Origin: Cyclobacterium plantarum
GTDB lineage: Bacteria; Bacteroidota; Bacteroidia; Cytophagales; Cyclobacteriaceae
DNA: 64,000 bases
Reading direction: 5' to 3'
Assembly (NCBI RefSeq): GCF_011290685.1
Contig: NZ_JAANYN010000001.1
Span: 727,325-791,324, forward strand
The position numbers were made by a program, and so were the translations under genes. A model generated the notes under the pieces. The model saw nothing but the letters and a program-made list of their open reading frames with translations, had not been told where the DNA came from and ran no database searches. Below are positions 2,993 through 16,983 of the stretch, in pieces (position 1 is the first letter of the stretch; each line of letters starts with the position of its first letter).

Positions 2993-4561
2993 ATGGCCAA
3001 ACAGAAACTAAATGAAAAAGCGATTGAAGAAACCTTGTGGCAGTCTTGCGACAAGTTGAGGGGTTCGGTAGAGCCTGCTGAATACAAACACGTAGTACTC
3101 GGACTGATTTTCCTGAAATTCGCCAGCGATAAATTTGAACAACGAAGAAAAGAACTGCTTGCCGAAGGCAAAGAAAAATACGTGGAAATGAAAGATTTCT
3201 ATGCTATGAAAAATGTGTTCTACTTAGAAGAAAATTCACGTTGGAGCTACATCATCAAAAATGCCAAACAAAACGACATTTCCCTAAAAATTGATACGGC
3301 TCTCAACACGATTGAGAAAAACAACCCTGCTTTAAAAGGTGCTTTGCCCGACAATTATTTTTCTAGGTTGGCACTTGATAAAACAAAGCTCGCTTCCCTG
3401 CTCGACACCATCAACGATATTGATACAATCAAAGACAACGGACAAGATGTAATTGGACGTGTGTATGAATATTTTTTGGGCAAGTTTGCCTTGAAGGAAA
3501 GCAGTGGTAAAGGCAAAGGAGAGTTTTACACACCCAAAACCATTGTGAACTTGATGGCGGAATTGATAGAACCCTACAAAGGAATCATTTATGACCCTTG
3601 CTGTGGAACAGGCGGTATGTTTGTGCAGTCCATCAAATTTATTGAAAGCCACCAGGGAAGCAAAAAGGAAGTTTCTATTTACGGGCAAGAAAATACTCCA
3701 ACTACTTATAAATTGGCGAAAATGAATTTGGCTATTCGAGGTATTGCTGCCAACCTTGGAGACAAACACGCAGATACTTTTGCTAACGACCAACACAAAG
3801 ACCTGAAAGCCGATTACATTATGGCAAATCCGCCATTTAACCTGAAAGATTGGCGGGGCGAAAGCGAACTTTTGGACGACCCACGTTGGATGGGCTATGA
3901 AGTGCCACCCAAAAGCAACGCCAACTACGGTTGGATTTTGAATATGGTGAGCAAACTTTCTGAAAATGGAGTAGCAGGTTTCATTCTTGCCAATGGTGCA
4001 CTTTCGGGCGGTGGCGAAGAATACAAAATCCGTAGAAAGTTGATTGAGAACGATTTGGTGGAAGCCATTATTATCATTCCCAGAGATACATTTTATACAA
4101 CTGACATCAGCGTAACACTTTGGATTCTGAATAAAAACAAAAAGCAACGCACGGACAATACCAAAGACAAACCCAAAAACTATCGAGACCGGAAAGGCGA
4201 AATCCTTTTTATGGATTTAAGACGTTGGGGAAGCGAATACGAGAAAAAATACATTGAACTCACCGAAGATGATATAAAAGAAGTAGCTCTAAACTACCAC
4301 AATTGGCAACAAGTGGGCTACGAAGACACCTATAAGGACATTCCCGAGTTTTGCAAGTCTGCCCGTTTTGAAGACCTGAAAGCCAACGATTTTTCATTGG
4401 TGCCGAGCAAATACATTGAATTTGTTGACAAAGACAGTGGCATTGACTTTGACACCGAAATGAAACGCATTCAGCAAGATTTTAAAACCCTGCTACAAGA
4501 AGAAAAAGAATCACAAGCTCAATTGATTAATGCTTTTAAAACATTGGGTTATGAGTTATAA
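2993..4561 (+). CDS. hsdM: type I restriction-modification system DNA methyltransferase subunit
   Basis: 522 residues, a normal length for HsdM. It is the adenine-N6 methyltransferase subunit, which with HsdS forms the modification enzyme and with HsdR the restriction complex. An N-terminal helical HsdM domain covers about residues 6-140. The SAM-binding motif I is DPCCGTGGM at 201-209, and the catalytic motif IV NPPF is at 279-282. The GEFYTP segment just before motif I is also typical. It is the first gene of a seven-gene run and overlaps hsdS by 11 bases (4551-4561). All key residues are present, so the methylase should be active. Confidence 0.97.
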   Translation: MAKQKLNEKAIEETLWQSCDKLRGSVEPAEYKHVVLGLIFLKFASDKFEQRRKELLAEGKEKYVEMKDFYAMKNVFYLEENSRWSYIIKNAKQNDISLKIDTALNTIEKNNPALKGALPDNYFSRLALDKTKLASLLDTINDIDTIKDNGQDVIGRVYEYFLGKFALKESSGKGKGEFYTPKTIVNLMAELIEPYKGIIYDPCCGTGGMFVQSIKFIESHQGSKKEVSIYGQENTPTTYKLAKMNLAIRGIAANLGDKHADTFANDQHKDLKADYIMANPPFNLKDWRGESELLDDPRWMGYEVPPKSNANYGWILNMVSKLSENGVAGFILANGALSGGGEEYKIRRKLIENDLVEAIIIIPRDTFYTTDISVTLWILNKNKKQRTDNTKDKPKNYRDRKGEILFMDLRRWGSEYEKKYIELTEDDIKEVALNYHNWQQVGYEDTYKDIPEFCKSARFEDLKANDFSLVPSKYIEFVDKDSGIDFDTEMKRIQQDFKTLLQEEKESQAQLINAFKTLGYEL

Positions 4562-5705
4562 GCGTTTGGGCGATTACATACAATTGGTTGACAACCGCAA
4601 CAAGGATTTGAAAGTGACAAATCTCTTGGGCATTAACATTACCAAAAACTTTATGCCTTCGGTTGCTAATGTTTCAGGCACTGACTTGTCCAAATATAAA
4701 ATCATACAAAAAGGGCAATTTGCCTATTCTGCAATGCAAGTTGGCAGGGATGAAACCATCCGCCTAGCACTTTACACGGATGATGTGCCTGCGATTATCT
4801 CACCAGCCTATTTAGTCATTGAAAGCAAAGATGAAAACGAATTTATTCCTGAATATATGATGATGTGGTTTCAACGACCTGAATCTGACAGGTACGGATG
4901 GTTTATTAGTGACGGTAGCGTAAGAGCCAGCTTGGATTGGGAACGATTTTGTGAAATAGAAATCCCTATTCCAGACATTGACGAACAACGCAAATATGTA
5001 GCCCTTTTCAAAGGCTTACTCACCAATCAAAAAGTGTATGAGAACAGCTTGGCCGATTTGCAGCTGATTTGCGATACTTACATTGAAAATTTGATTAAAA
5101 AAGAACCCCTGAAACGATTAGGAGAATATATCGAGTTGAATGAACAGCGGAATAGGAATTTGAAATACGGTGTTGATGATGTACGTGGGGTTTCAAATAA
5201 CAAGCAGTTTATGCCAACAAAAGCCAATAATGCAGGAAGAAATCTCGAAAAGTTTTATGTGATATCACCAGGTGAATTCGTTTACAATAGTCGGACAACT
5301 CGGATGGGTGACAAAGTAGGCTTAAGTTACAACAACACTGAAGAAACATTCCTGACAAGTTGGAATAATACAGCATTTAGAGTGAAGAGAGACGCCTTGG
5401 ACTTGCTCAAGCCTGCGTATCTATACTTATTTTTTTATCGGTCTGAATTTGACCGATATGCTCGCTTTCATTCTTGGGGAAGTTCAACAGAGCAATTTAC
5501 TTGGGGTGATATGTGCAATGTGCATTTACCCATCCCAAGTATTGAAAAACAAGAAGCCATAGTAACCATTTACCACACGTTAGAAACCCGCAAACGCATC
5601 AATGAGCAGTTGAAAGAAAGTATTAAACCGCTTTGTCCTGTGCTGATGAAAGGGGTTGTGGAGAGTATGGAGATTAATGTAAAAGAAGCAAGCTATGAAA
5701 TATAA
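4551..5705 (+). CDS. hsdS: type I restriction-modification system specificity subunit
   Basis: 384 residues if started at the ATG at 4551, which overlaps the hsdM stop. An upstream in-frame ATG at 4530 would add seven residues of unlikely sequence. It shows the classical two-half design. The first target recognition domain covers about residues 3-150 and ends in an IPIPDIDEQ motif, followed by a helical conserved region. The second covers about 186-340 and ends in LPIPSIEKQ, followed by another helical region. The halves resemble each other, with KRLGDYI and KRLGEYI starts and NFMPS/QFMPT motifs. HsdS reads a bipartite DNA target. It overlaps the first TIR gene by 11 bases. Confidence 0.95.
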   Translation: MSYKRLGDYIQLVDNRNKDLKVTNLLGINITKNFMPSVANVSGTDLSKYKIIQKGQFAYSAMQVGRDETIRLALYTDDVPAIISPAYLVIESKDENEFIPEYMMMWFQRPESDRYGWFISDGSVRASLDWERFCEIEIPIPDIDEQRKYVALFKGLLTNQKVYENSLADLQLICDTYIENLIKKEPLKRLGEYIELNEQRNRNLKYGVDDVRGVSNNKQFMPTKANNAGRNLEKFYVISPGEFVYNSRTTRMGDKVGLSYNNTEETFLTSWNNTAFRVKRDALDLLKPAYLYLFFYRSEFDRYARFHSWGSSTEQFTWGDMCNVHLPIPSIEKQEAIVTIYHTLETRKRINEQLKESIKPLCPVLMKGVVESMEINVKEASYEI

Positions 5706-6867
5706 ATATCAGATAATAACTTTAGGTTCAGATGTTAAACAAAAGCAAGAAATACTGAACCAGATAAACATTGAAATAGAAAATCTAGATCTCCCAGAGG
5801 GTTTTGTTAAAGTCATTCAAGCATCTTCTATTGAAACAGAATATATAGGTAACCAACCTGCATTCGCACTTTATTTTGGTGATGTAAATGGAGATTTTAA
5901 AGATTTGAATGTTACGCAAAATCTTTTGAAAGATGGAACAATGATTCTCCCTATCTTCTATGATGAATTTAATTCTGAGATACCATCAATTCTTTCAAAT
6001 CAAAATGCTATTCAATACAAGAAAAGTGAGGTAAATAGAATTGCTAATATTGTGTTGGAAGCTTTTGAATTATTGCGAAGCACCAGAAAGGTGTTTATAA
6101 GTTATCGGAGAGCAGAATCAACATCTACTGCAATTCAGCTTTACGAAGCTATGGAGGCAAAGAATTTTGATGTTTTTCTTGATACTCACTCAATTCAAAA
6201 AGGAGAACCATTTCAAGACGAATTGTGGCACAGAATGACTGATTGTGATGTAATTGTTTTACTGAATACCCCTGGATTTCTTGAAAGTCATTGGTGTAAA
6301 GAAGAATTTGCGGAGGCCGGAGCGAAACAAATTGGTATTGTTCAATTGGTATGGCCAAATCATAAAATTAAAGAAATTGAGAGTTCATCTCAAATTAGTT
6401 ATCCTATTCAATTAACAGAAGATAACTTTGTCGATAAAGTAATTGATCATAAAGCAAAGCTTATTTTGCCCTTTCTAGAGAAAGTTATTCAAGAAGTCGA
6501 GTCTGTCCGAGCGAGGAATTTAGCCGCAAGACAAGATAACTTAATCACTGAGTTTAGAAATATTGCTATGAAATACAATAGAATTGTCACCGTTCAACCT
6601 GAAAAATTTCTAACTGAAGATCTGCCTAATGGCGAGCATATTATTTATGTACCCACTATAGGTGTTCCACAATCTTCAAGTTGTCAATCAGCTGAAATTA
6701 AAAAAGAATTAATGGGCTATAAAGATGTATCCATTCGATTAATTTATGATGATTTGAGAATTCGTGACAAATGGTTAAAGCATTTGGAATGGTTGAATGA
6801 CAATTTCAAAAAAGATATTAAGACGTTGAAAAAACAAGATTTTGAATCATGGTTACAGAAAGTATAA
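5695..6867 (+). CDS. TIR-domain protein with N- and C-terminal extensions
   Basis: 390 residues in three visible parts. Residues 1-128 form an alpha/beta-looking domain I do not recognise (FALYFG near 57-62, a helical end near 112-128). Residues 131-260 form a TIR domain: it starts RKVFISYRRAES, has FDVFLDTHSIQKGE near 158-171, and WCKEE at 200-204 places the NADase glutamate at E204. Residues 266-390 are a charged helical and mixed region of unknown role. TIR domains of this type cleave NAD, either to deplete it or to make a cyclic ADP-ribose signal. The gene sits inside a type I restriction operon, overlaps hsdS by 11 bases and the SLOG gene by 19, and is clearly more AT-rich than the hsd genes. 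The TIR call is firm; the defence role is inferred. Confidence 0.88.
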   Translation: MKYKYQIITLGSDVKQKQEILNQINIEIENLDLPEGFVKVIQASSIETEYIGNQPAFALYFGDVNGDFKDLNVTQNLLKDGTMILPIFYDEFNSEIPSILSNQNAIQYKKSEVNRIANIVLEAFELLRSTRKVFISYRRAESTSTAIQLYEAMEAKNFDVFLDTHSIQKGEPFQDELWHRMTDCDVIVLLNTPGFLESHWCKEEFAEAGAKQIGIVQLVWPNHKIKEIESSSQISYPIQLTEDNFVDKVIDHKAKLILPFLEKVIQEVESVRARNLAARQDNLITEFRNIAMKYNRIVTVQPEKFLTEDLPNGEHIIYVPTIGVPQSSSCQSAEIKKELMGYKDVSIRLIYDDLRIRDKWLKHLEWLNDNFKKDIKTLKKQDFESWLQKV

Positions 6868-7445
6868 AAAATATATTTCTATCTGCAAGTGTTCCATTAC
6901 CTGATAGGGATGCAAAGTATATTGAATCAGCTGACATAATAGCAATTAGAGATGCAGTAATAGCACTTACAACTGTTGTACTTCCATATCATCGAATTAT
7001 ATGGGGTGGTCATCCATCAATCACTCCATTAATTTATTATGTAATGCAAAAGCTGGGAATGAATATTCAAGATCACGTTAAACTTTATCAATCTCGGTGG
7101 TTTGAAAAAATGTTTCCTAAAGATAATAACAAGTTTGAAAACATAGTATTTACAGATAGTCAAGGAGATATCTCTTCAAGTATTAAGCATATGCGTGAAA
7201 GAATGTTATCTGAAAATGAATTTGCTGCTGCCATTTTTATTGGTGGAATGAATGGTATTGAAGATGAATTTAAAATGTTTGTAGAGTATCATCCCAATGC
7301 ATTGTTAATTCCTGTATCGAGTACAGGAGCTGCAACCAAAATTGTTTATGATAATTTACTTCCTGAAAACCTTAAAAATACAAGGCTTGAAAAGGATTAC
7401 GGATATATGTCTTTATTTCAAAAATTTTTAATGGATAAAATTTAA
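6849..7445 (+). CDS. stand-alone SLOG-superfamily (nucleotide-sensing) protein
   Basis: 198 residues. The fold signature is of the SLOG/LOG-DprA type: a first strand (NIFLSASVP), then GGHPSI at 53-58 after a strand, and the glycine-rich GGMNGIEDE at 132-140, matching the phosphate-binding GG..G..E motif of the superfamily, followed by a strand and STGAAT near 158-163. SLOG domains bind or process nucleotide ligands. In Thoeris ThsA a SLOG domain binds the cyclic ADP-ribose isomer made by the TIR protein ThsB. Here the domain stands alone with no fused effector. It overlaps the upstream TIR gene by 19 bases and is followed 4 bases later by a ThsB-like TIR gene. It is probably the ligand sensor of the module, or a ligand-processing enzyme. 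Confidence 0.75.
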   Translation: MVTESIKNIFLSASVPLPDRDAKYIESADIIAIRDAVIALTTVVLPYHRIIWGGHPSITPLIYYVMQKLGMNIQDHVKLYQSRWFEKMFPKDNNKFENIVFTDSQGDISSSIKHMRERMLSENEFAAAIFIGGMNGIEDEFKMFVEYHPNALLIPVSSTGAATKIVYDNLLPENLKNTRLEKDYGYMSLFQKFLMDKI

Positions 7446-7449
7446 GGTT

Positions 7450-8136
7450 ATGGCAAGAAAAATCTTTGTTTCCTATAAATATTCAGACACCTTAGTTCAA
7501 GACCTGAATTTATATGAAGATTTATTTTTCGGAAAATTCAAAATAAAAACTACTGCAAGACATTATGTAGATAAATTATCTGAGCACCTGTTGGAGGATG
7601 ACCATATCTACAAAGGTGAAGATGATGGTGAAAGTATGGCGAACCTTTCAGATTCTTCAATTAGCTCAAAATTAGGAGATAAGATATTTGACAGTAGCGT
7701 AACAATTGTACTGATTTCTAAAGGTATGAAAGAATCCTATACCTTGGAAAAGGACCAATGGATACCTTGGGAAATCTCCTACTCTCTGAAGAGGCAAACA
7801 AGGGTAGGCAAAACAAGTAGTACGAATGGCATAATTGCTGTCGTCCTTCCTGATGAATTCGCAAGTTATGAATACTACATAACTTGGAGTTTTGAGTGTG
7901 GTTGCCGGTGGTTAAATACTCCTTTTCTATTTCAAATACTTCGTAATAATATGTTTAACGTAAAGAAGCCAAATAGACGGCTTTGTGACGGAAAGTGGGT
8001 ATACACTGGCGATAACTCTTATATTCAGTCAGTTAAATGGGACGATTTTGTTTTAACTCCCTCAATCTACATTGATAAGGCAATAGAATTGAGAGATAGG
8101 AGGGATGATTTTATTATTGTAAAAACTATTATGTAA
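7450..8136 (+). CDS. ThsB/DUF1863-like TIR protein
   Basis: 228 residues. It begins directly with the TIR first strand (ARKIFVSYKYSDT), and the conserved DSSVTIVLIS strand is near 81-90. A WIPWEIS motif near 104-110 puts the presumed catalytic glutamate at E108, in the W..WEI setting typical of DUF1863/MTH538-type TIR proteins, the family of Thoeris ThsB. The C-terminal half (about 130-228) continues the family layout. Members of this type make cyclic ADP-ribose signals in Thoeris. The gene lies 4 bases after the SLOG gene and 3 bases before the third TIR gene. Assignment to the ThsB-like group is from motif pattern, not from an alignment. Confidence 0.8.
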   Translation: MARKIFVSYKYSDTLVQDLNLYEDLFFGKFKIKTTARHYVDKLSEHLLEDDHIYKGEDDGESMANLSDSSISSKLGDKIFDSSVTIVLISKGMKESYTLEKDQWIPWEISYSLKRQTRVGKTSSTNGIIAVVLPDEFASYEYYITWSFECGCRWLNTPFLFQILRNNMFNVKKPNRRLCDGKWVYTGDNSYIQSVKWDDFVLTPSIYIDKAIELRDRRDDFIIVKTIM

Positions 8137-8139
8137 TTT

Positions 8140-8715
8140 ATGAGTTTTATTACAGAATCAGAAATTAAGAACCAGAGTAGGTCAAAAAAAAGCTATATTA
8201 CTTTAAGTGATAGCCTAAGAAATTTTAAAAATGAAAGTACTTACCGTAAGACTAAAGTATTTCTTTCACATAAACACGATGAAAAGGAGTATCTGGAAGG
8301 TGCTATCTCATTTTTGAAATCATATGGTGTAGATATTTACGTAGATTGGCAAGATGATGGAATGCCAAAAATAACATCAGGTCGAACAGCGGTGAGGATC
8401 AAAGAGAGAATTAAAGAAAACCACAAGTTTATACTGCTTGCAACAGAAGGTGCTATAAATTCTAAATGGTGTAATTGGGAGTTAGGGCTTGGTGATGCTG
8501 CAAAATATATTGATAACATAGCCTTATTACCTATCAAAAGTGATTATAATGATTTTTCAGGAAGTGAATATTTAGAGGTATATCCTTATATATTCAATAT
8601 CGATTATTATCAGTTCTTCAAAGGTGATTATAGATCTCAAGGAACATATGTTGTATATCCATCTGTAAATGGTAAGGATAGAGTTATCCCAATAGCACAA
8701 TGGTTAAGGAACTGA
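8140..8715 (+). CDS. small TIR-domain protein
   Basis: 191 residues. A polar N-terminal stretch (1-36) is followed by a complete TIR domain: KTKVFLSHKHDEKEY starts near 37, VDIYVDWQDDGMP near 64-76, HKFILLAT near 95-102, and SKWCNWELG at 108-116 with the presumed NADase glutamate at E114. This is the TIR group with a KVFLSHKH opening, distinct from the ThsB-like neighbour. It could be a second signal producer or an NAD-depleting effector. The gene is 3 bases after the previous TIR gene and 4 bases before hsdR, so the three TIRs, the SLOG and the hsd genes should share one transcript. Confidence 0.85.
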   Translation: MSFITESEIKNQSRSKKSYITLSDSLRNFKNESTYRKTKVFLSHKHDEKEYLEGAISFLKSYGVDIYVDWQDDGMPKITSGRTAVRIKERIKENHKFILLATEGAINSKWCNWELGLGDAAKYIDNIALLPIKSDYNDFSGSEYLEVYPYIFNIDYYQFFKGDYRSQGTYVVYPSVNGKDRVIPIAQWLRN

Positions 8716-8719
8716 TGTA

Positions 8720-11700
8720 ATGAAGTTCACTGAGACGAAATTAGAGCAAGCATTTACAGAGCTTTTAGGAAATGAAGGCTATCCGCACTTTGTGGGAAGT
8801 AGTTTGTTGCGTTCTAGCGAAGACGAAGTTCTCATTGAAGAAGACCTGAAAGCTTATTTGCTCATTCGCTACGAAAAGACTAATCTCACCGAAACCGAAG
8901 CACAATCAATAATTCTGCAACTCAAAACGCTTTCTTCGGCTGACCTTTACGAAAGCAACAAGAAAATAATGCAATGGTGGGCAGATGGATTTATTCTTAA
9001 ACGAGAAGACAGAAGCCAAAAAGATATTCATATTTCACTCATTGATTATGCAGGTTTAGACCGTCAGCGAAAAAGTGAAAATTTAGACATCATTGCGGCA
9101 GAACCTCAAGTACAATATCCGCCAGACACCAATATTTACAAGTTCGTCAACCAGTTAGAAATTGTAGGCACAGAAAGACGAATTCCAGACGGCATATTGT
9201 ATATCAATGGACTACCTGTGGTGGTTTTTGAATTTAAAACTGCCATTCAGGAAGACACGACTATTCACAATGCGTATGTTCAATTAACCACACGCTACAA
9301 AAGAGACATTCCCGAACTGTTTAAGTACAATGCTTTTTGCATCATTAGTGATGGCGTAAACAACAAAGCAGGTTCGTTTTTTGCCCCTTATGAATTTTAC
9401 TACGCTTGGCGAAGAATTGCAGGTTTGGCAAAAGACGTGGACGGCATAGACAGTATGTTCACGTTGGTTCAGGGAATGTTGCACAAAAACCGCTTGCGGG
9501 ATATTATTCAGAACTTCATTTACATTCCCGATTCATCCAAAAAAGACGAGAAAATAGTTTGTCGTTATCCGCAATATTATGCAGCTCGCAGTTTATATGA
9601 GAACATTAAAATAGCAGAGAAACCAGACGGAGACGGAAAAGGCGGAACTTACTTTGGAGCAACAGGAAGCGGAAAGAGTTTCACAATGCTTTATCTCTCT
9701 CGCCTTTTGATGAAGAGCAAGCATTTTGAAAGTCCCACCATTGTACTCATTACCGATCGAACCGATTTAGATGACCAGCTTTCCGGTCAATTTACCAATG
9801 CCAAGCAATTTATTGGGGACAATGCCATAGAAAGCGTTGAAACCAGGGCGGATTTAAGAAGCAAACTGCAAGGCAGAAATAGTGGTGGTGTTTTTTTGAC
9901 CACCATTCACAAGTTTACAGAAGATACCGAATTGCTTACCGAAAGAACCAATGTGATTTGTATTTCGGATGAAGCCCACAGAAGCCAAACCAATCTTGAC
10001 CAAAAAGTAAAAGTAACTTCCGATGGCGTTAAGAAAACTTATGGTTTTGCAAAATACCTACATGATTCTTTGCCCAATGCTACCTTTGTGGGCTTTACAG
10101 GAACGCCCATTGATGCCACCTTGGATGTGTTTGGGAAAGTGGTGGATGCCTACACGATGACAGAATCTGTAAGAGATGAAATTACGGTGCGTATTGTTTA
10201 CGAAGGTAGAGCGGCGAAAGTCGCCCTACACAATAGCGAATTAGAGAAAATAGAAAAATACTACGAAGAAGCGGCCGAAGCAGGAGCCAACGAATACCAA
10301 ATAGAAAAAAGCAAAAAAGCAACGGCCACAATGAATGCCATCTTAGGCGACCCAGACCGTTTACTGAAGCTGGCAGAGGACTTTGTAAAGCATTATGAAA
10401 ACAGGGTAAATGAAGGGGCTACTGTAAAAGGCAAAGCAATGTTCGTTTGTAGTAACAGAGAAATTGGCTACGAGTTTTACAAAAATGTGGTTGCATTAAG
10501 ACCTGAATGGGCAGAAATAAGAGTAGCTGAAGAGGGGGCAGTTTTGACCGACAAGGACAAGAGGGAAATCAAACCAATGGAACGCATCAAAATGATAATG
10601 ACCAGAAATAAAGACGACCCGGATAAAATGTACCAATTGATCGGTACAAAAGAATATCGAAAGGAATTGGACAGGCAATTCAAAAACGAAAAATCCAATT
10701 TTAAAATTGCCATTGTGGTAGATATGTGGCTCACAGGTTTTGATGTGCCCTTTCTGGATTCTATTTACATTGACAAACCCATTAGACAGCACAACCTGAT
10801 TCAGACCATTTCGAGAGTAAACCGTAAGTTTGAAGGGAAGAATAAAGGCTTAGTAGTTGATTACATTGGCATAAAGAAAGCCATGAATATGGCTCTCGCT
10901 AATTACAACAAAGGTGAAAGAGAAAATTTTGAGGATATTCAGGAATCGTTGATCATAGTTAGAAATCATTTGGACCTACTGGCCAAAATTTTTCACAAGT
11001 TTGATAGCTCCAAATATTTTGCAGGAGAAGCCTTAGAGCAGTTGAATGCCTTGAATACGGCAGCTGAATATGTTCAGTTGACCAAAGAATTGGAAACCCG
11101 ATTTATGGGTTTGGTAAAACGCTTGAAAGCGGCATATGATATTTGTGCAGGAAGTGAACACCTAACTCAAGAAGAAAGAGATTATACCCACTTCTATTTA
11201 GCCGTTCGCTCTATAGTATTCAAACTTACTATTGGCGTTGCACCAGACACTGCTCAAATGAACGCCAAAGTGCGTGAAATGATAAAAGACGCATTGGAAA
11301 GTGACGGTGTTCAGGAGATTTTCAAACTTGGAGACGAAAACCAAAGCGAACAAGATCTTTTTGATGAAGATTATTTGGCGAAAATTGACAAAATCAAATT
11401 ACCACACACCAAGATCAAATTGCTTCAACAACTTTTGGCCAAAGCCATCGGAAAAATTAAGAAAGTCAACAAAGTAAAAGGAGTTGACTTCTCAAAGAAA
11501 ATGCAAACCTTGGTAGAACGCTACAATGAACGAAAAGAGGATGACGTCTTAAGAAGCGAAGTTTATGAAGAAATGGCTGAGCATTTGACCAATTTGATTT
11601 GGGAAGTTCAGAACGAATTTTCAGCTGGAGACGAGTTAGGAATTGACTTTGAAGAAAAAGCTTTTTATGATATTTTGAAAGATTTGTGCATTAAGTATGA

Positions 11701-11932
11701 CTTTAGATATCCCGAAGAAAAACTTATTGTTTTAGCCCAAAAGGTTAAAGAATTAGTGGATTCACAAGCTAGATATCCTGATTGGAGTAAACGGGAAGAT
11801 ATAAAATCTGCTTTAAAAGTAGGACTGATAATTCTATTGGATGAACACGGTTATCCGCCAGTAGAAAGAGATGAAGTTTATCAGGATATCTTCGAACAAG
11901 CGGAGAATTTTAAGAAGAATAGGGTAATTTAG
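8720..11932 (+). CDS. hsdR: type I restriction endonuclease subunit R
   Basis: 1070 residues, full length for HsdR, the subunit that translocates DNA with ATP and cuts it. The N-terminal PD-(D/E)xK nuclease shows D157 and the E-F-K triplet at 171-173. Walker A is GATGSGKS at 313-320 and the DEAH box is at 417-420. The later helicase motifs FVGFTGTP and QTISRVNR are present. The C-terminal third is helical and should contact the methylase. It is the last gene of the operon, separated from hsdM and hsdS by four TIR/SLOG genes, an unusual arrangement. All catalytic motifs are intact, so restriction should work. Confidence 0.96.
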   Translation: MKFTETKLEQAFTELLGNEGYPHFVGSSLLRSSEDEVLIEEDLKAYLLIRYEKTNLTETEAQSIILQLKTLSSADLYESNKKIMQWWADGFILKREDRSQKDIHISLIDYAGLDRQRKSENLDIIAAEPQVQYPPDTNIYKFVNQLEIVGTERRIPDGILYINGLPVVVFEFKTAIQEDTTIHNAYVQLTTRYKRDIPELFKYNAFCIISDGVNNKAGSFFAPYEFYYAWRRIAGLAKDVDGIDSMFTLVQGMLHKNRLRDIIQNFIYIPDSSKKDEKIVCRYPQYYAARSLYENIKIAEKPDGDGKGGTYFGATGSGKSFTMLYLSRLLMKSKHFESPTIVLITDRTDLDDQLSGQFTNAKQFIGDNAIESVETRADLRSKLQGRNSGGVFLTTIHKFTEDTELLTERTNVICISDEAHRSQTNLDQKVKVTSDGVKKTYGFAKYLHDSLPNATFVGFTGTPIDATLDVFGKVVDAYTMTESVRDEITVRIVYEGRAAKVALHNSELEKIEKYYEEAAEAGANEYQIEKSKKATATMNAILGDPDRLLKLAEDFVKHYENRVNEGATVKGKAMFVCSNREIGYEFYKNVVALRPEWAEIRVAEEGAVLTDKDKREIKPMERIKMIMTRNKDDPDKMYQLIGTKEYRKELDRQFKNEKSNFKIAIVVDMWLTGFDVPFLDSIYIDKPIRQHNLIQTISRVNRKFEGKNKGLVVDYIGIKKAMNMALANYNKGERENFEDIQESLIIVRNHLDLLAKIFHKFDSSKYFAGEALEQLNALNTAAEYVQLTKELETRFMGLVKRLKAAYDICAGSEHLTQEERDYTHFYLAVRSIVFKLTIGVAPDTAQMNAKVREMIKDALESDGVQEIFKLGDENQSEQDLFDEDYLAKIDKIKLPHTKIKLLQQLLAKAIGKIKKVNKVKGVDFSKKMQTLVERYNERKEDDVLRSEVYEEMAEHLTNLIWEVQNEFSAGDELGIDFEEKAFYDILKDLCIKYDFRYPEEKLIVLAQKVKELVDSQARYPDWSKREDIKSALKVGLIILLDEHGYPPVERDEVYQDIFEQAENFKKNRVI

Positions 11933-12078: not shown

Positions 12079-12966
12079 ATGAAACCAATCAACAAAAAAG
12101 ACCTGGACCAGGAAGTATTTGACCTGTATGATGATTATGCCCATAGCCGCATAGAGCGCCGGGATTTTGTACAGCGCCTGTCCAAATTTGCCGTAGGCGG
12201 GCTCACCGTATCGGCCATTATGGGCTACCTGATGCCCAATTATGCCGCTGCCCGGCGCTATACACAAGACGATCCCCGGCTGATCTCGGAATACATTACC
12301 TACGACTCGCCCAAAGGGGCAGGTACCATGAAGGGCTTGCTGACCCGTCCCAAAGACCAAAGCGGACCGCTGCCGGGCATACTGGTAGTACACGAAAACC
12401 GCGGGCTGAATCCCTATATTGAAGATACGGCCCATCAGGCGGCCCTGGATGGCTTTATCGCCTTTGCGCCGGATGCGCTGACCCCCTTTGGCGGATATCC
12501 GGGTTCGGATGATGAAGGCCGTACCATGCAGTCCAAACGGGATCGGGAAGACATGCTGCAGGATTTTATTGCCGGTTATGAAACCCTGAAAAACCACGAA
12601 CATTGTACCGGAAAAGCCGGTGTGGTGGGCTTCTGCTTTGGCGGCTGGATATCCAATATGATGGCCGTAAGGGTTCCCGACCTGGGTGCGGCTGTGCCCT
12701 TTTATGGCGGACAGCCCACGGCAGAAGAGGTGCCCCAGATCAAGGCGCCGCTCATGCTGCACTTTGCGGGACTGGACACCCGGGTAAATGCCGGCTGGCC
12801 GGATTACGAGAAGGAGCTGAAGGCCCATGACAAAGCATACCAGGCCTTTATGTACCCGGAGGTAAACCACGGCTTCCACAACCATTCCACGCCCCGCTAC
12901 GACGAAGCTGCTGCCAAGCTGGCCTGGGGACGGACCATCGCATTCTTTAAAGAGAAACTGGCCTGA
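12079..12966 (+). CDS. dienelactone hydrolase family protein with Tat-like signal
   Basis: 295 residues. An N-terminal arm with a twin-arginine-like [16 protein letters not shown] segment (26-41) and a hydrophobic stretch to about residue 58 suggests Tat export or membrane anchoring. The rest is a dienelactone-hydrolase-type alpha/beta hydrolase. The nucleophile is C186 in GFCFGG, with D233 in GLDTRV and H264 in NHGF completing the Cys-Asp-His triad. The natural substrate is unknown; the family hydrolyses lactones and esters. The GC content is visibly higher than in the preceding restriction operon, which marks the right edge of the defence island. A near-consensus promoter word TACATTTA lies just upstream. 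Confidence 0.92.
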
Positions 12967-12984: not shown

Positions 12985-13896
12985 CTACCAGTTAAAGGAA
13001 GCGACTACCGGGTAGTGATCGGATAGCCGGTCCGGGGTGCCGGTGTTGATCACCGCTGCCTGGCTGCAGCGAAATTCAAACCAGGGGCTTACCAGGATAT
13101 AATCGATGCGTTGCTTGTAGGCGGCACGTTGGTCGGGTGATAGTTCCGGTGTGATTAAGGGAGTAGGGAAGGAGGACTTCCGGTCTTCCGCTGTATGGGC
13201 CTGTACCACATCGATCAGTGGAAGGGACAGAAACCTGGACATCACGCTGTAATCAAAGCTCCCGCTGCGAAGGGTTTGGTAGGCAGCCTGGCCCTTCTCT
13301 GCATGGCGCAGGCTATCGCTTTCCTGGTTTCGTCTAAGGGTTTCCGGATGGGCCCGGTCAAATTCGGCATCAAAAGGGGAGTGGGAATTAAAATCCCCCA
13401 GCACCATAAACCGTTCCTGCCGGTTTTTGATCAGCACATTTTCGATATAAGTGGAAATAATTTCGGCTTCCGATCGCCTGAACTGCCAATCATGGGGACT
13501 GAGGTGGACGACCAGAAAGTCTATGTCGCGTGTTCTGGCATGCAGCATGCCGTGCCAAAATCCTCCCAGCATGCGGCTTTTGAGTTGCAGCGGTGTTTTC
13601 GAACTGATGCCTATGGGATAGCCCTCTTCTTTCAATAGCAGTGTATAGGGGTGTCCCCATTGACGGGCCAGGTTGGCAAATTTCTCCGGGCTAAAGGCAT
13701 TGAGTTCCTGAAAGCCGATGACATCGGCATCCTGTTCCTGCAGCCATCGGACCATGGCCGCTTGCCTTAGGGTATCCTTACCCCAGTCAAATCCATTCCA
13801 GATATTGTAGCTGATGACTTTGAGGGATTGGTTTTGGGCAGCTACTTCGGCTTGAAGCAATGCAAACAGGGTAAGCGTTAGAAAAAATCGATTCAT
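12985..13896 (-). CDS. secreted endonuclease/exonuclease/phosphatase family protein
   Basis: 303 residues starting with a clear signal peptide (hydrophobic 4-16, cleavage near AAQNQ). The EEP-fold motifs are in order: SYNIWNG near 29-35, FQEL with the metal-binding glutamate near 60, GDFNSH near 166-171, and the C-terminal SDHYPVV with the catalytic Asp-His pair. These enzymes cut phosphodiester or phosphomonoester bonds in nucleic acids, phosphoinositides or sphingomyelin. Substrate cannot be told. It converges on the dienelactone-hydrolase gene with 18 bases between stops. Confidence 0.92.
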   Translation of the reverse strand: MNRFFLTLTLFALLQAEVAAQNQSLKVISYNIWNGFDWGKDTLRQAAMVRWLQEQDADVIGFQELNAFSPEKFANLARQWGHPYTLLLKEEGYPIGISSKTPLQLKSRMLGGFWHGMLHARTRDIDFLVVHLSPHDWQFRRSEAEIISTYIENVLIKNRQERFMVLGDFNSHSPFDAEFDRAHPETLRRNQESDSLRHAEKGQAAYQTLRSGSFDYSVMSRFLSLPLIDVVQAHTAEDRKSSFPTPLITPELSPDQRAAYKQRIDYILVSPWFEFRCSQAAVINTGTPDRLSDHYPVVASFNW

Positions 13897-14048
13897 GGTA
13901 TTGGTATCAATAATTTTTTTGAAATAAAATTTTTTAGTACTAAGTAAAACTGAATCATGACCTGCACGATTAGGCGCTTTATGCAGCGCCTGCGTTGCCA
14001 GCAGCTTTACGTTAATTATTTTTTGGGTACGGGTACCGGTACAGTACC

Positions 14049-15182
14049 TTACTTTTCCTTGCCCGATACTGTCAGCCAGTCGGTCAGAAACTGCACCCCT
14101 TCCTCCACTATCGCCTCATGACCTCCTTCATGCAAGACCAAAGTTATCTTTTCGGGTATTTTTAGGAGCTTGTAGTGAATCGCTGCTTCTTCGTACTCCT
14201 CGACTACCTGTGGCCAATGGGCGATGTTATCGTTTTTTCCGTGTTGAATCATCAGTGGCCGGGGTGCTATCAGGGAAACAAGGTCGTCATCGGAAAATTC
14301 CGTCAGCCAGCCGTTGAAAAAGGCATGCTCTTCCCGGGGTGAAAAGCTCGAATAGCGCTCATCCGGCACTGCCATCTTATTTCTTCGTTGATTGAACCAG
14401 GCCGATACCACACCTGCTTTTATCCGGGGTTCAAGGGGCATCCAGAACATGGTAGCCATTCCTCCCAGGGAAACGCCCCACATCCCGACCCGGTCCGCAT
14501 CCACCCGCGGATCCGCGAGTACAACGTCCAACAGGTGCTGGACCCGAACCAACTCTATCCCCGGCAAACTGGTACCTGCGAGGCGGGCGAAACGCTCCAC
14601 ATTATTGCGCCTTTCCACGGAGCGTAAGTTCATCGGCAGGAGTACGGCAAATCCGGCATCGAGCAATCCCTTAGCGTACTCATGGTAGGCCCCGGTGGAA
14701 AAAGGTGTTTCCGGTGTGCTGCCGATGCCGTGCTGCACAATGATCAGCGGAACCGGCTGCTCTTTTCCTGCGCCTTCGGGGAAGGCAAGTACTGCTTCTG
14801 CTGTTAGCAGGCCCAGGGGAAGGGTAAGCCATTCGGCCTGTATTTCTCCCAGGGGATGCGGTTTGCTTTCCAGCGGTCCGGTCTTGGAGAGTATGGGAGG
14901 GCGCAGCACTTCTTCCCATCGCCTGCGATTGGGGCTGACGCTTCGTTCGAGGGCCGCAGGACTGCTGTAATCCCGGTTCCACTGCTTGGCTGCCCGGGCT
15001 TCATACTCCTCCACCAGAAAATGTTGCAGGTAATTTTTCAGTTGGCTTTCGTAGGCTTCGGTGCGGGCTGTTTCGACCTCCGGATCAATCAGATTAGCAT
15101 TTTGGGCAACAGATTTCCCCCTACCCGCCAATAACCCGAATGCGAGTAAACATACCACCGGAATAATCCTTTTTATTTTCAT
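14049..15182 (-). CDS. exported alpha/beta hydrolase
   Basis: 377 residues with a signal peptide (hydrophobic about 7-19, cleavage near VAQN). The hydrolase fold shows VQHGIGS near the oxyanion region, the nucleophile elbow GVSLGG with S238, an acid at D318 in HGKND, and H355 in EGGHE, a complete triad. It is similar in layout to prolyl-oligopeptidase-like or acetyl-xylan-esterase-like hydrolases of Bacteroidota. The real substrate is unknown. It lies on the same strand as the EEP-family gene but 152 bases away, so co-transcription is possible but not shown. Confidence 0.88.
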   Translation of the reverse strand: MKIKRIIPVVCLLAFGLLAGRGKSVAQNANLIDPEVETARTEAYESQLKNYLQHFLVEEYEARAAKQWNRDYSSPAALERSVSPNRRRWEEVLRPPILSKTGPLESKPHPLGEIQAEWLTLPLGLLTAEAVLAFPEGAGKEQPVPLIIVQHGIGSTPETPFSTGAYHEYAKGLLDAGFAVLLPMNLRSVERRNNVERFARLAGTSLPGIELVRVQHLLDVVLADPRVDADRVGMWGVSLGGMATMFWMPLEPRIKAGVVSAWFNQRRNKMAVPDERYSSFSPREEHAFFNGWLTEFSDDDLVSLIAPRPLMIQHGKNDNIAHWPQVVEEYEEAAIHYKLLKIPEKITLVLHEGGHEAIVEEGVQFLTDWLTVSGKEK

Positions 15183-15825
15183 TTGCTTGTCGTTGTATTA
15201 TGGCGGACTTGTGCCCCGCCCGGTTCATTTTGGGAAGCATCCCGCAGGTTATACATCATGCCTCCTCAGGTCATTTGTGCCATACGGGATTCATCTAGTT
15301 CATATATTTGTTTCTAAGTGATCAGATGCCTGCCTGTCTGCAGACAGGGAATCTTCACATGATTACTCCGATAGCTATCGGGGCATCCCTCCGTATGTCG
15401 CATGCGTCATGCTCGATTTCATGTGTTTAATGTAGTCAATTACTTGCTTTAATCGAATGAATCGGTAAAAAAAACGATGTGTCTATGCCTGTGATCGGCC
15501 AAAGGTGTCTGTATTGCGCCGGTAGGAAGGGTTGCCAACTATGTTCAGGAGGTAGTCAGCATATACTCTTGAACCCAATCAACGAATGAGCAGGGAGTAT
15601 ATGCCCCGTGGGATCATATAGGAAAAGTTTGCCCCCGTTTTACTTCGTTTTATCGGTCTCTTGAATAACTTCTAAAAGGCCATTAAAAGTTTAGCCATAC
15701 CTCTATAATAATCTCTTTAGGTCTACTAATCAGCATGTGAAATAATGGCTGAATATCAAACTGTTGAATCGGGATTTTATAGGATTAAATTTGTTTATTT
15801 GCTTTTTTAGTTCAAGATTAGGAAC
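15183..15825. other. intergenic region with two perfect palindromes
   Basis: 643 bases without a gene. It contains the perfect palindromes CCTGTCTGCAGACAGG (15333-15348) and CCGATAGCTATCGG (15368-15381), 19 bases apart. Both look like dispersed intergenic palindromes rather than terminators, since no T run follows. The right end carries the promoter of the DUF4221 gene. Confidence 0.55.
15764..15793 (+). promoter_or_regulatory. Bacteroidota-type promoter of the DUF4221 gene
   Basis: TAAATTTG at 15786-15793 matches the TAnnTTTG -7 element. A TTG at 15764-15766, 19 bases upstream, fits the -33 element. Transcription would start about 25-30 bases before the ATG at 15826. Confidence 0.6.
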
Positions 15826-16983
15826 ATGAAAAACCATTTCACTGTATTATTGATAATCGGGGTATTGAATGCCTGTAGTACTCCATCTTCAAGAACTGAT
15901 CAGGTGGAGGGAATAGATATATTCATTGATACGGTCCTGATTGATACCGGAGAGGATTTTATTAACCTCAAATCTGGAATTTATTTTTCGGGTCTCAGCA
16001 ACGATGGAAAGCACCTTTTTAATTCTGGTGGGACAAGTCCTTACCTGGAAAGAATAAACCTGGAAACGTTGAAGTTTGAAGAAAAGATGGATTTTGACGT
16101 GGATGGACCCAATGCATTTGGAGATTATGTGTATGGGGTAAGTTCGGATGTCAACAATAATTTGATCTTGACGAGTCATTTTTCCACAAGTATTTTCAAC
16201 ATTGAAAAGCAAAAACTGAAAGAGTATCTTTTAATAGGACGTAATTTTAAAGGGGATGAATTAGTAAAACGCGAACAATTCACCTCGAAAATTATCCCTA
16301 CTAGTGATTATAATATAATTTTTGGCCTGGTTGAGAATCATGATACCGGAGAAATATTTTTTGCGATCTTAAACGAGGAAACAGATGTTTTAAGAAAAGT
16401 AAAACTAAATGAATTTGAGAAGGCCATAGATTTTACGGTGAGGTACCAGCAAGGAAGAGGTGCATCCGTTTCTCCCCAAAATTCAGAAATTGTTCGATTG
16501 GGAAATAAACTCGTAATCACAAATCCGGTGTTTAGCAACATAGCAGTATATGATTTAGTGGAGGAAAACCTGAAGTATTATGCCTGCCTACCAACACTAA
16601 CGGCATCAGAAAAATCAGGTACCTATACCAGAGAGGTCAATTCAAGAGAGGAATTTAACATTCGGAAAATAGAGATAGGGAAAGAAGTCACATTTCTACC
16701 CTTGATGAGAGATTCAACCAATAACCAGTATGTTAGGATGTCAATAATAGGGCAACCAAAGATGAATGATAATGGCCTGCCAGAAATGAATGACCACAAA
16801 GTGTTTGTCAGTATTCTCAATGATTCTTTTGAAGTGACCAAAGAGGCAGAGGTAGCAGATGGTATTGGTAAACTTTTTTCGACTCCCATACCCCAAAAAC
16901 CTTTTATGAAAGACGGAAAAGTATGGCTTTATCTTAATGTCAATGACGAATTGGCTTTTGTGCGGTTGGACCTGGATGCATAG
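15826..16983 (+). CDS. DUF4221 family lipoprotein
   Basis: 385 residues. A lipoprotein signal ends in the lipobox LNAC with the lipid-carrying C17. The rest looks like a beta-rich, propeller-like repeat protein (SNDGKHLF, SSDVNNNLIL and similar strands) and fits the DUF4221 family of Bacteroidota lipoproteins, whose function is unknown. It is probably anchored in the outer or inner membrane facing the periplasm. It stands alone with its own promoter. Confidence 0.8.
   Translation: MKNHFTVLLIIGVLNACSTPSSRTDQVEGIDIFIDTVLIDTGEDFINLKSGIYFSGLSNDGKHLFNSGGTSPYLERINLETLKFEEKMDFDVDGPNAFGDYVYGVSSDVNNNLILTSHFSTSIFNIEKQKLKEYLLIGRNFKGDELVKREQFTSKIIPTSDYNIIFGLVENHDTGEIFFAILNEETDVLRKVKLNEFEKAIDFTVRYQQGRGASVSPQNSEIVRLGNKLVITNPVFSNIAVYDLVEENLKYYACLPTLTASEKSGTYTREVNSREEFNIRKIEIGKEVTFLPLMRDSTNNQYVRMSIIGQPKMNDNGLPEMNDHKVFVSILNDSFEVTKEAEVADGIGKLFSTPIPQKPFMKDGKVWLYLNVNDELAFVRLDLDA

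Follow-up and report, generated by a model that had tools for sequence, protein, structure and literature searches.

Seven genes on the forward strand of the window (the whole 64,000-nucleotide stretch of DNA analysed) make up a type I restriction operon in which four TIR and SLOG genes lie between hsdS and hsdR. The operon opens with hsdM (2993..4561), encoding the N6-adenine methyltransferase subunit (Pfam N6_Mtase, 328 bits; HsdM_N, 89.5 bits), and hsdS, encoding the specificity subunit (4551..5705, alternative ATG at 4530; Methylase_S, 55.9 bits; PADLOC Specificity_I, E 1.1e-103). There follow TIR1, a 390-residue protein assigned to ThcB4 (5695..6867; NCBIfam NF058526, 447.8 bits against a cut-off of 220; TIR_2), and a stand-alone SLOG protein of 198 residues assigned to ThcA (6849..7445; NF058525, 263.8 bits, cut-off 110; LD_cluster3, 205 bits). 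Next come two ThsB-like TIR proteins, namely TIR2 (7450..8136; 228 residues, with E108; ThsB_TIR, 26.6 bits, cut-off 21.2; PADLOC ThsB1, E 4.5e-79) and TIR3 (8140..8715; 191 residues, with E114; TIR_2, 35.4 bits, cut-off 28; PADLOC ThsB1, E 1.1e-63). The restriction subunit gene hsdR (8720..11932) closes the operon and carries HSDR_N, SWI2_SNF2, T1R_D3-like and T1RH-like_C domains (PADLOC REase_I, 1274 bits).

All three hsd genes are present at full length by Pfam and PADLOC, predicting a type I restriction-modification system, and all seven reading frames are intact. With the hsdS start placed at ATG 4551, neighbouring genes overlap by 11, 11 and 19 bases and are then separated by gaps of 4, 3 and 4 bases; recomputation, domain scans and alignments reproduced the gene order, coordinates, spacing and catalytic glutamates of the first-pass annotation. 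Judging by this spacing, the four genes are probably carried on the hsd transcript. Promoter-like sites (31 versus 29.4 +/- 5.6 in shuffles) and terminator-like sites (9 versus 7.3 +/- 2.9) showed no excess. The GC content of the four-gene cargo is 33-34%, compared with 36-41% for the hsd genes and 51-56% for the right flank.

Family membership and conserved residues

By the family membership of TIR1 and the SLOG protein, the module is Thoeris type III. Both proteins score about twice the curated NCBIfam cut-offs for ThcB4 and ThcA, and thcB4 adjoins thcA with the 19-base overlap. The earlier proposal of a TIR/SLOG signalling defence module is thus borne out by the NCBIfam names and by PADLOC, in which TIR1, TIR2 and TIR3 all fall in ThsB models; the PADLOC ThsA match in the SLOG protein is weak (E 0.0044). 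For TIR2 and TIR3, no NCBIfam Thoeris or ThcB model was reached above cut-off. Pfam scans of eight window proteins found neither the SIR2 domain of the type I ThsA effector nor the macro or caspase families that mark Thoeris types II and IV, and no PrrC or AAA_13 protein was found among the window proteins scanned with Pfam and PADLOC. The window resembles Thoeris type III in its SLOG protein and TIR1; it differs in being nested in an hsd operon and in the lack of an NCBIfam Thoeris match for TIR2 and TIR3. It resembles Thoeris type I (a SIR2-SLOG ThsA plus ThsB) in its ThsB-like TIR2 and TIR3 and its SLOG domain, whereas it has no SIR2 and encodes its SLOG separately, next to a TIR protein with which it forms a pair. 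A description of Thoeris type III, or of Thoeris within an hsd operon, was not found in the open-licence literature searched; the excerpted part of one report names the phage gene TadIII in passing as 'protecting from Thoeris type III' (PMC12390725). The ThcB/ThsB type in which NCBI and PADLOC place TIR1 would suit a sensor better than an effector.

The catalytic residues are conserved across the alignments. TIR1 comprises an N-terminal domain (about residues 1-125), a TIR domain (about 130-230) holding E204 and a C-terminal domain (about 258-390), as delimited by alignment and a low-confidence model. E204 is kept in 15/15 rows counted (17 were aligned, and the fragments L028 and L031 were left out) and in 16/16 rows of alignment A5, E108 of TIR2 in all 14 aligned TIR2-like rows, and E114 of TIR3 in all 19 TIR3-like rows. 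G132, G133, G136 and E140 of ThcA are kept in 16/16 rows, a pattern that we take to resemble the LOG catalytic motif. The SLOG profiles of ThcA and ThsA align collinearly (P 1.1e-4, hhalign probability 57%), and the invariant R116 and E140 of ThcA fall on two of the three ThsA ligand residues, while the counterpart of the third, K388, is not kept.

Structural comparisons were less informative. The two AlphaFold models (mean pLDDT 58 and 62), which cover TIR1 and the SLOG protein, are weak. The best match of the ThcA profile in the PDB (7uxt, E 0.098) was not significant, and a fold search with the low-confidence SLOG model gave no match at E 0.001. For TIR1, the fold search returned mainly GTPases and sugar isomerases at low TM-scores besides SARM1, the sole fold match relied on, which was also obtained from sequence. 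The idea that the N- and C-terminal domains of TIR1 are extra TIR domains found no support (hhalign probability below 1%).

The hsdS-hsdR slot and the spread of ThcA loci

Comparison of the DNA with four relatives delimits an exchangeable cargo interval running on the forward strand from the hsdS end to the hsdR start codon (5672..8719). Similarity to these relatives, whose cargo differs, is lost at 4994-5703 and returns at 8719-8721; against a genome of the same genus it breaks off near the hsdS end and restarts a single base ahead of the hsdR ATG, and a Kiwa-like pair occupies the interval there. Among 35 loci of the same hsd lineage, 31 carry cargo in the hsdS-hsdR gap, of at least eight defence-gene kinds that include Kiwa-like, SIR2-HerA, argonaute, AbiE and type I Thoeris genes. 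Clustering placed AAA_13 proteins in the slot of four relatives; the two that were scanned with PADLOC match PrrC (E 1e-13 and 1e-10), and the candidate family PDC-S06 fits them far better. The Thoeris cassette seems to be one among many defence cassettes that can replace each other in a single slot, with the restriction operon serving as their docking site.

The first-pass annotation knew of no described system with this layout, a statement that is not supported: the module belongs to a system that already has a name, and other defences have been described in this position. PrrC sits between hsdS and hsdR. According to excerpts of the respective sources, it lies within a type IC locus and becomes active when EcoPrrI is inhibited (PMC12707154), DarTG2 of EPEC lies between hsdS and hsdR of a type I operon at a site suggested as a potential recombination hotspot (PMC12255303), and type I operons also harbour tgvAB of the V. 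cholerae island VPI-2 and RloF (PMC11411939). The window shares with the EcoPrrI locus the insertion of defence genes among type I restriction genes and differs in having no anticodon nuclease; it is like DarTG2 and TgvAB in carrying a whole defence system there and differs from them in chemistry. Whereas those are single reports, slot occupancy is quantified here in one hsd lineage. Individual cases of defence genes within type I operons thereby become a pattern with numbers attached, in which exchanges begin at the hsdR start codon, and the slot is marked as a place to seek unknown defence systems.

Of the 29 ThcA loci examined, eight are nested in hsd operons, which supports a recurrent TIR/SLOG nesting. 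One further locus lies beside a divergent hsdR, and at 20 no hsd gene was found when the 21 non-nested loci were searched with 195 hsd queries (tblastn, E 1e-5), a search that distant hsd families could escape. A Pfam scan of ten large ORFs from five of the free loci left this count unchanged; the plasmid gene tables are incomplete. The single neighbouring case, L037 on a Rhizobium plasmid, has a ThcB4-ThcA pair beside a divergent, truncated-looking EcoR124-type hsdR; hence an independent link to type I restriction exists outside this hsd lineage.

The grammar of these loci is partly fixed. A SLOG gene is present in 29/29 (with two additional SLOG-like pieces in L043), TIR1 adjoins it in 28/29 (L006 stops at a contig edge), the 19-base overlap recurs in 11 of 17 loci having both genes within one set of loci compared, and TIR1 and SLOG hit the identical 29 of 72,556 plasmid records; ThcA occurred in 0 of 50,697 phage records. 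Further TIR genes, one to four per locus and from three families, accompany the pair in 27/29 loci, some by weak matches, and L029 and L037 have no extra TIR on the stretch. The idea of a four-gene block moving as a unit accordingly holds for TIR1 and SLOG, a constant pair, and fails for the other TIR genes, which are exchanged. Since identical gene order is seen in other genera, the arrangement is not due to chance, and a one-off insertion is ruled out. The lack of an extra TIR in L029 and L037, the hsdR beside the pair in L037, the hhalign probability of 57%, the missing K388 counterpart, the weak models, the SLOG fold search that gave no match and the sensor-like ThcB/ThsB label of TIR1 are observations that run against the cassette model set out below.

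A single ancestral insertion was rejected: on the ThcB4+ThcA tree the eight nested rows do not group together (p-AU 1.2e-51 for one clade), and on the hsdR tree the same holds for the seven hsdR of Thoeris III loci (p-AU 4.6e-5). These tests do not distinguish gain from loss, involve long branches, and used groups named after the loci were seen. The nested or non-nested label switches several times on the trees.

Effector logic and the relation to restriction

A natural experiment is offered by L065, which belongs to the same hsd lineage and carries, in the same slot, a SIR2-SLOG ThsA (PADLOC, 593 bits; PDB NAD(+) hydrolase ThsA, E 1.7e-140) in place of ThcB4 and ThcA. Its slot also contains a TIR2-like gene 41% and a TIR3-like gene 76% identical to those of the window, and the two TIR3 proteins are sisters on the tree (92/88) within a starred clade; another sister pair joins L119, which has ThsA, with L027, which has ThcA (98/99). 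Because ThsA replaces ThcB4 and ThcA together beside so similar a TIR3, we infer that ThcA and ThcB4 act as receptor and effector and that TIR2 and TIR3 make the signal. Closely related TIR3 proteins thus accompany a SIR2-SLOG effector in L065 and a split TIR and SLOG pair in the window, so that the identity of the type III signal and the effector logic can be tested by part exchange.

The explanation that we favour, as probable though well short of certain, is that this Thoeris type III anti-phage system is an exchangeable hsdS-hsdR cassette working as an independent second layer by a split-ThsA mechanism. TIR2 and TIR3 would sense a phage product and turn NAD+ into an ADP-ribose-type signal, which would be bound by ThcA, whose R116 and E140 match ThsA ligand residues. 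ThcA would then activate ThcB4, whose TIR domain would destroy NAD+ and abort the infection, so that ThcA and ThcB4 together would amount to a split ThsA. The cassette would share the hsd transcript, function on its own and stand alongside restriction.

The roles within the pair could also be reversed, with ThcA as the effector enzyme, a LOG-like nucleotide hydrolase, and ThcB4 as a TIR that, in the manner of staphylococcal ThsB1, senses the phage or makes the signal, a reading that we hold to be somewhat improbable. It is consistent with the conserved, presumably LOG-like glycines and E140 of ThcA. Excerpts of two sources add that LOG-clade SLOG domains cleave N-glycosidic bonds (PMC9503650) and that S. 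aureus ThsB1 binds capsid while ThsB2 is the cyclase (PMC11312562). However, ThsA in L065 stands in for ThcB4 and ThcA together rather than for ThcA alone, and E204 of ThcB4 is kept throughout, whereas S. aureus ThsB1 tolerates a change of its glutamate, according to the same excerpt (PMC11312562).

The first-pass annotation had inferred that the module is coupled to DNA modification and restriction, which is not supported as worded. Functional coupling may exist; dependence on restriction is not implied, because 21/29 ThcA loci are not nested, the label changes on the trees and unrelated defences of many kinds occupy the slot. One form of coupling, which we consider unlikely, makes the slot a dedicated docking bay in which the restriction operon selects and expresses back-ups, with Thoeris III wired to the restriction complex and TIR2 and TIR3 triggered by restriction failure or products. 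If true, one operon would combine restriction with an NAD+-based suicide alarm in a single graded response, with an exchangeable effector half (ThsA or ThcA plus ThcB4).

A PrrC-like guard, silenced by or watching HsdMSR and firing once a phage disables restriction, also seems doubtful. Cell death or arrest is the presumed outcome of many of the slot's cargo types, which would suit such a guard, as would the AAA_13 proteins in the same slot and the L037 pair beside its EcoR124-type hsdR. PrrC itself provides the precedent, given its excerpted activation on EcoPrrI inhibition (PMC12707154). Against this, most ThcA loci (20/29) had no hsd gene found, the slot also carries Kiwa-like, RhuM and other cargo lacking a common sensor, and the embedded tgvAB genes protect alone, if less than the whole cluster, with HsdR activity not needed (PMC11411939, excerpt).

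Passive hitch-hiking, in which the slot does no more than permit recombination and its genes are silent or in decay, agrees with the many cargo types and the low GC of the cargo and is nonetheless very improbable in view of the seven intact frames, the retained catalytic residues and the recurrent 19-base overlap.

A Thoeris type III module within a type I restriction operon

Gene calls place hsdM, hsdS, TIR1, SLOG, TIR2, TIR3 and hsdR, in that order, on the + strand at 2993-11932, and the order, overlaps and gaps reported for the seven genes in the first-pass annotation match these coordinates. The hsd genes are recognised by Pfam, PADLOC and NCBIfam; TIR1 scores 447.8 bits against the NCBIfam model 'Thoeris type III ThcB4' (cut-off 220) and SLOG 263.8 bits against 'ThcA' (cut-off 110), and PADLOC ThsB models are matched by TIR2 (E 4.5e-79) and TIR3 (E 1.1e-63). 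Because these matches make the module a named system, Thoeris type III, the novelty that had been claimed for the four genes falls in part; what stands is the combination of the module with the interval between hsdS and hsdR (the slot), which, like the almost constant occupation of this slot and the exchange of ThsA (the SIR2-SLOG effector of Thoeris type I) for ThcB4 and ThcA, is undescribed in the literature as far as searched. The kind of place is itself known, as DarTG2, TgvAB and PrrC are likewise put inside type I operons in the source excerpts covered. Among such excerpts, no paper describing Thoeris type III was found; a phage protein protecting from it is named in an excerpt of PMC12390725. 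Upstream of hsdM, a 313-aa gene (1691-2632) has no Pfam or NCBIfam match above the curated cut-off and none in PADLOC.

The module was compared across 29 ThcA loci, comprising the window, 13 further whole-genome loci (all over the cut-off, two apparently identical with L006 and L007), L002-L005 from genome_contigs (picked up through their similarity to the SLOG of the window itself and hence biased towards close kin), 8 of 29 plasmid records and three viral contigs. The SLOG gene is present in 29/29, with two more SLOG-like pieces on the opposite strand in plasmid L043, and TIR1 adjoins it in 28, the exception being L006, where the stretch ends; the plasmid records bearing TIR1 and those bearing SLOG are the identical 29. 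The two genes overlap by 19 bases in 11 of 17 loci holding both, the remainder having other overlaps or short gaps. One to four further TIR genes, of three families, occur in 27/29 loci and none in L029 (a distant relative) or L037 (a Rhizobium plasmid), counts that are rough because a few matches are weak (down to E 2e-5), some lie several kilobases off or on the opposite strand, and the search missed at least one TIR-type protein, of 489 aa, in L034. In this locus a SEFIR/TIR protein immediately follows ThcA, and a Piwi-domain protein (13777-16158) lies ~3.5 kb downstream of the ThcA gene. Four proteobacterial plasmids (L038, L039, L042, L043) carry a gene annotated as a CBASS-type phospholipase, a partner or a neighbour, among the TIR genes upstream of ThcB4-ThcA.

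Nested and free ThcA loci

ThcA was found in 8/390 family genomes, 3/395 class genomes (one below cut-off) and 6/395 phylum genomes, the window's own genome being counted each time, and was absent from all 11 other same-genus genomes in the family search. Matches were obtained in 29/72,556 plasmid records (tblastn) and 0/50,697 phage records, and three loci were confirmed in IMG/VR. The nesting of a TIR/SLOG module in an hsd operon, as observed in the first-pass annotation, is real and recurrent: 8/29 ThcA loci are nested, namely the window, L003 (Arenibacter latericius), L004 (Euzebyella marina), L005 (Arenibacter sp.), L006, L007, L025 and L028. In L028, hsdS precedes TIR1 and the start of hsdR comes after TIR3; L006 starts at a contig edge, so nesting is seen on the hsdR side only. 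Counting the window, 14 whole-genome loci exceed the cut-off, and five of them are nested. With 195 hsd queries, no hsd genes were found in 20 of the 21 non-nested loci, of which L031 and L033 are less sure as free loci, their contig ends cutting one side. The remaining locus, L037, holds an unlisted 825-aa EcoR124-type hsdR frame (4264-6738, - strand), divergent and adjoining TIR1, with EcoR124_C, T1R_D3-like and SWI2_SNF2 domains and no HSDR_N match; the same queries found neither hsdM nor hsdS there. Here Thoeris III and type I restriction are neighbours in another way than by nesting.

A tree of ThcB4+ThcA was built for 25 loci, 8 nested and 17 free (L037 among the free), omitting L029 and the viral contigs. 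On it, the nested label requires four changes, three of them forced by starred branches, and the free loci L002 and L030 are placed among nested ones. In the hsdR tree (47 rows, quick method, L028 omitted), the seven Thoeris III loci require five changes, four forced. These label changes mean that gain, loss or exchange has been repeated, as both trees show.

Different cargo is found in the closest hsdR relatives of the window (94-95%). In a DNA comparison with the same-genus L057, similarity reaches 5671, 34 bases before the end of hsdS, and restarts at 8719, a single base ahead of the hsdR ATG; in L057 the Kiwa-like pair lies between. On the upstream side similarity ends at 4994 in L056, 5671 in L058 and 5703 in L059, with interruptions inside hsdS, and it resumes at 8720, 8719 and 8721, respectively. 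The free locus L002 matches the window at 5681-7481 only, that is, TIR1 and SLOG plus a few bases. Homologous recombination in the flanking hsd genes would be the simplest route of cargo exchange. Over most of the Thoeris genes the GC content is 33-34%; the hsd genes have 36-41% and the DNA at 12-15 kb has 51-56%. The chromosomal place itself is variable, because the same-genus genomes G238 and G195 hold SIR2-HerA and another type I operon beside their homologue of the window's dienelactone hydrolase gene (12079-12966); the operon beside that neighbour gene in L126 is unrelated to the window's and likewise has a foreign gene, a KAP NTPase, between hsdS and hsdR.

Filling of the hsdS-hsdR slot

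Slot filling was surveyed in 40 loci hand-picked from the family search, with hsdR 62-95% identical to the window's (blastp), a non-random sample of related genomes that omits fragments and loci already in the collection. hsdS was on the same stretch in 35, and the gap contained ORFs of ≥85 aa in 31 of these (1.3-8.1 kb, overestimated in L059 and L085 because the ORF caller starts hsdR late there) and none in four (L087, L088, L089, L091). For comparison, among 20 loci with hsdR 32-42% identical, 19 had hsdS, with gap ORFs in 13 and none in 6, judged by ORF length only. In these bacteria type I operons therefore often have a filled gap, and in the window's hsd lineage nearly all do.

The 184 cargo proteins formed 73 single-linkage clusters, from which 46 proteins were chosen; 40 were scanned with Pfam, and nine of these plus one more with PADLOC. 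Some of the loci listed here have no hsdS on the contig. Schlafen AlbA_2 proteins form the largest cluster (14 loci, some as short pieces), often right before hsdR (L004, L061, L065, L074 and others); in L002 one also stands after the free Thoeris set. RhuM occurs in 10 loci (several as short pieces), AbiEii in eight with a DUF6088 neighbour cluster, AAA_13 proteins in four, SIR2 with HerA in L064, L079, L083 and L094, argonaute in L056 and L069, Abi_C in L058 and L073, AbiH in L079, YhcG in L063 and ThsA in the gap of L065, together with KAP NTPases, YobI NTPases, HipA, and OLD-TOPRIM and other AAA_15 proteins. At the position of the window's Thoeris genes, L057, L058 and L060 (by clustering) have a KwaA/KwaB-like pair (172 and 272-276 aa), a distant Kiwa given PADLOC E-values of 6e-12 and 9e-16. 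In L067, GajB (Gabija) lies upstream of hsdR on a contig without hsdS. No Pfam family was found at E 0.001 for 9/40 cargo proteins, two of which, the Kiwa-like pair, were later named by PADLOC; one of the 40 was an hsdS. A Y1 protein lies in the gap of L072. The hsdR proteins of L092-L095 are about 1270-1294 aa long (in L093 divided between two frames) and have an additional ~210-aa stretch near residue 593, and the L092 piece matches a Y1 IS200-like transposase domain.

ThcA as a possible receptor and the partners of TIR3

3'cADPR is coordinated by R371, K388 and E403 of ThsA, according to an excerpt of PMC10022894, and the L065 ThsA has R376, K393 or K394, and E409 as counterparts, counted along a phmmer alignment with 6lhx. 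Profile comparison (hhalign) of ThcA with the ThsA SLOG domain aligned 160 columns (P 1.1e-4, probability only 57%), with R116 and E140 of ThcA opposite the first and last of the three ligand residues. Because these two are invariant in 16/16 rows and the lysine counterpart is not kept, the alignment suggests that ThcA may bind a ligand related to, but different from, that of ThsA.

In L065, a relative of the same hsd lineage, the slot contains genes for ThsA, a TIR2-like protein (41%), a TIR3-like protein (76%) and a Schlafen AlbA_2 protein. TIR3 matches were found in 13/380 family genomes. Among 19 TIR3-like proteins placed on a tree, the sister of the window's TIR3 is the one from L065 (92/88), and both belong to a starred clade that includes L003 and L004; separately, L119, which adjoins a ThsA, is sister to the ThcA-linked L027 (98/99, starred). 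A single clade of all ThcA-linked rows was rejected (p-AU 1.3e-4), some long branches meeting elsewhere in the tree, and the ThcA label showed no clustering beyond chance on this tree (101/500 shuffles as low). In the simplest reading, TIR3 would be an interchangeable sensor or signal maker, and ThcB4 with ThcA would play the same role as ThsA. Other neighbours of TIR3-like genes include a third ThsA (L122), a SLATT membrane protein (L120) and further partners (L118, L121, L124); in L123 and L124 the neighbour is a 323-aa gene, whose L123 copy has a caspase domain, as does Thoeris type IV.
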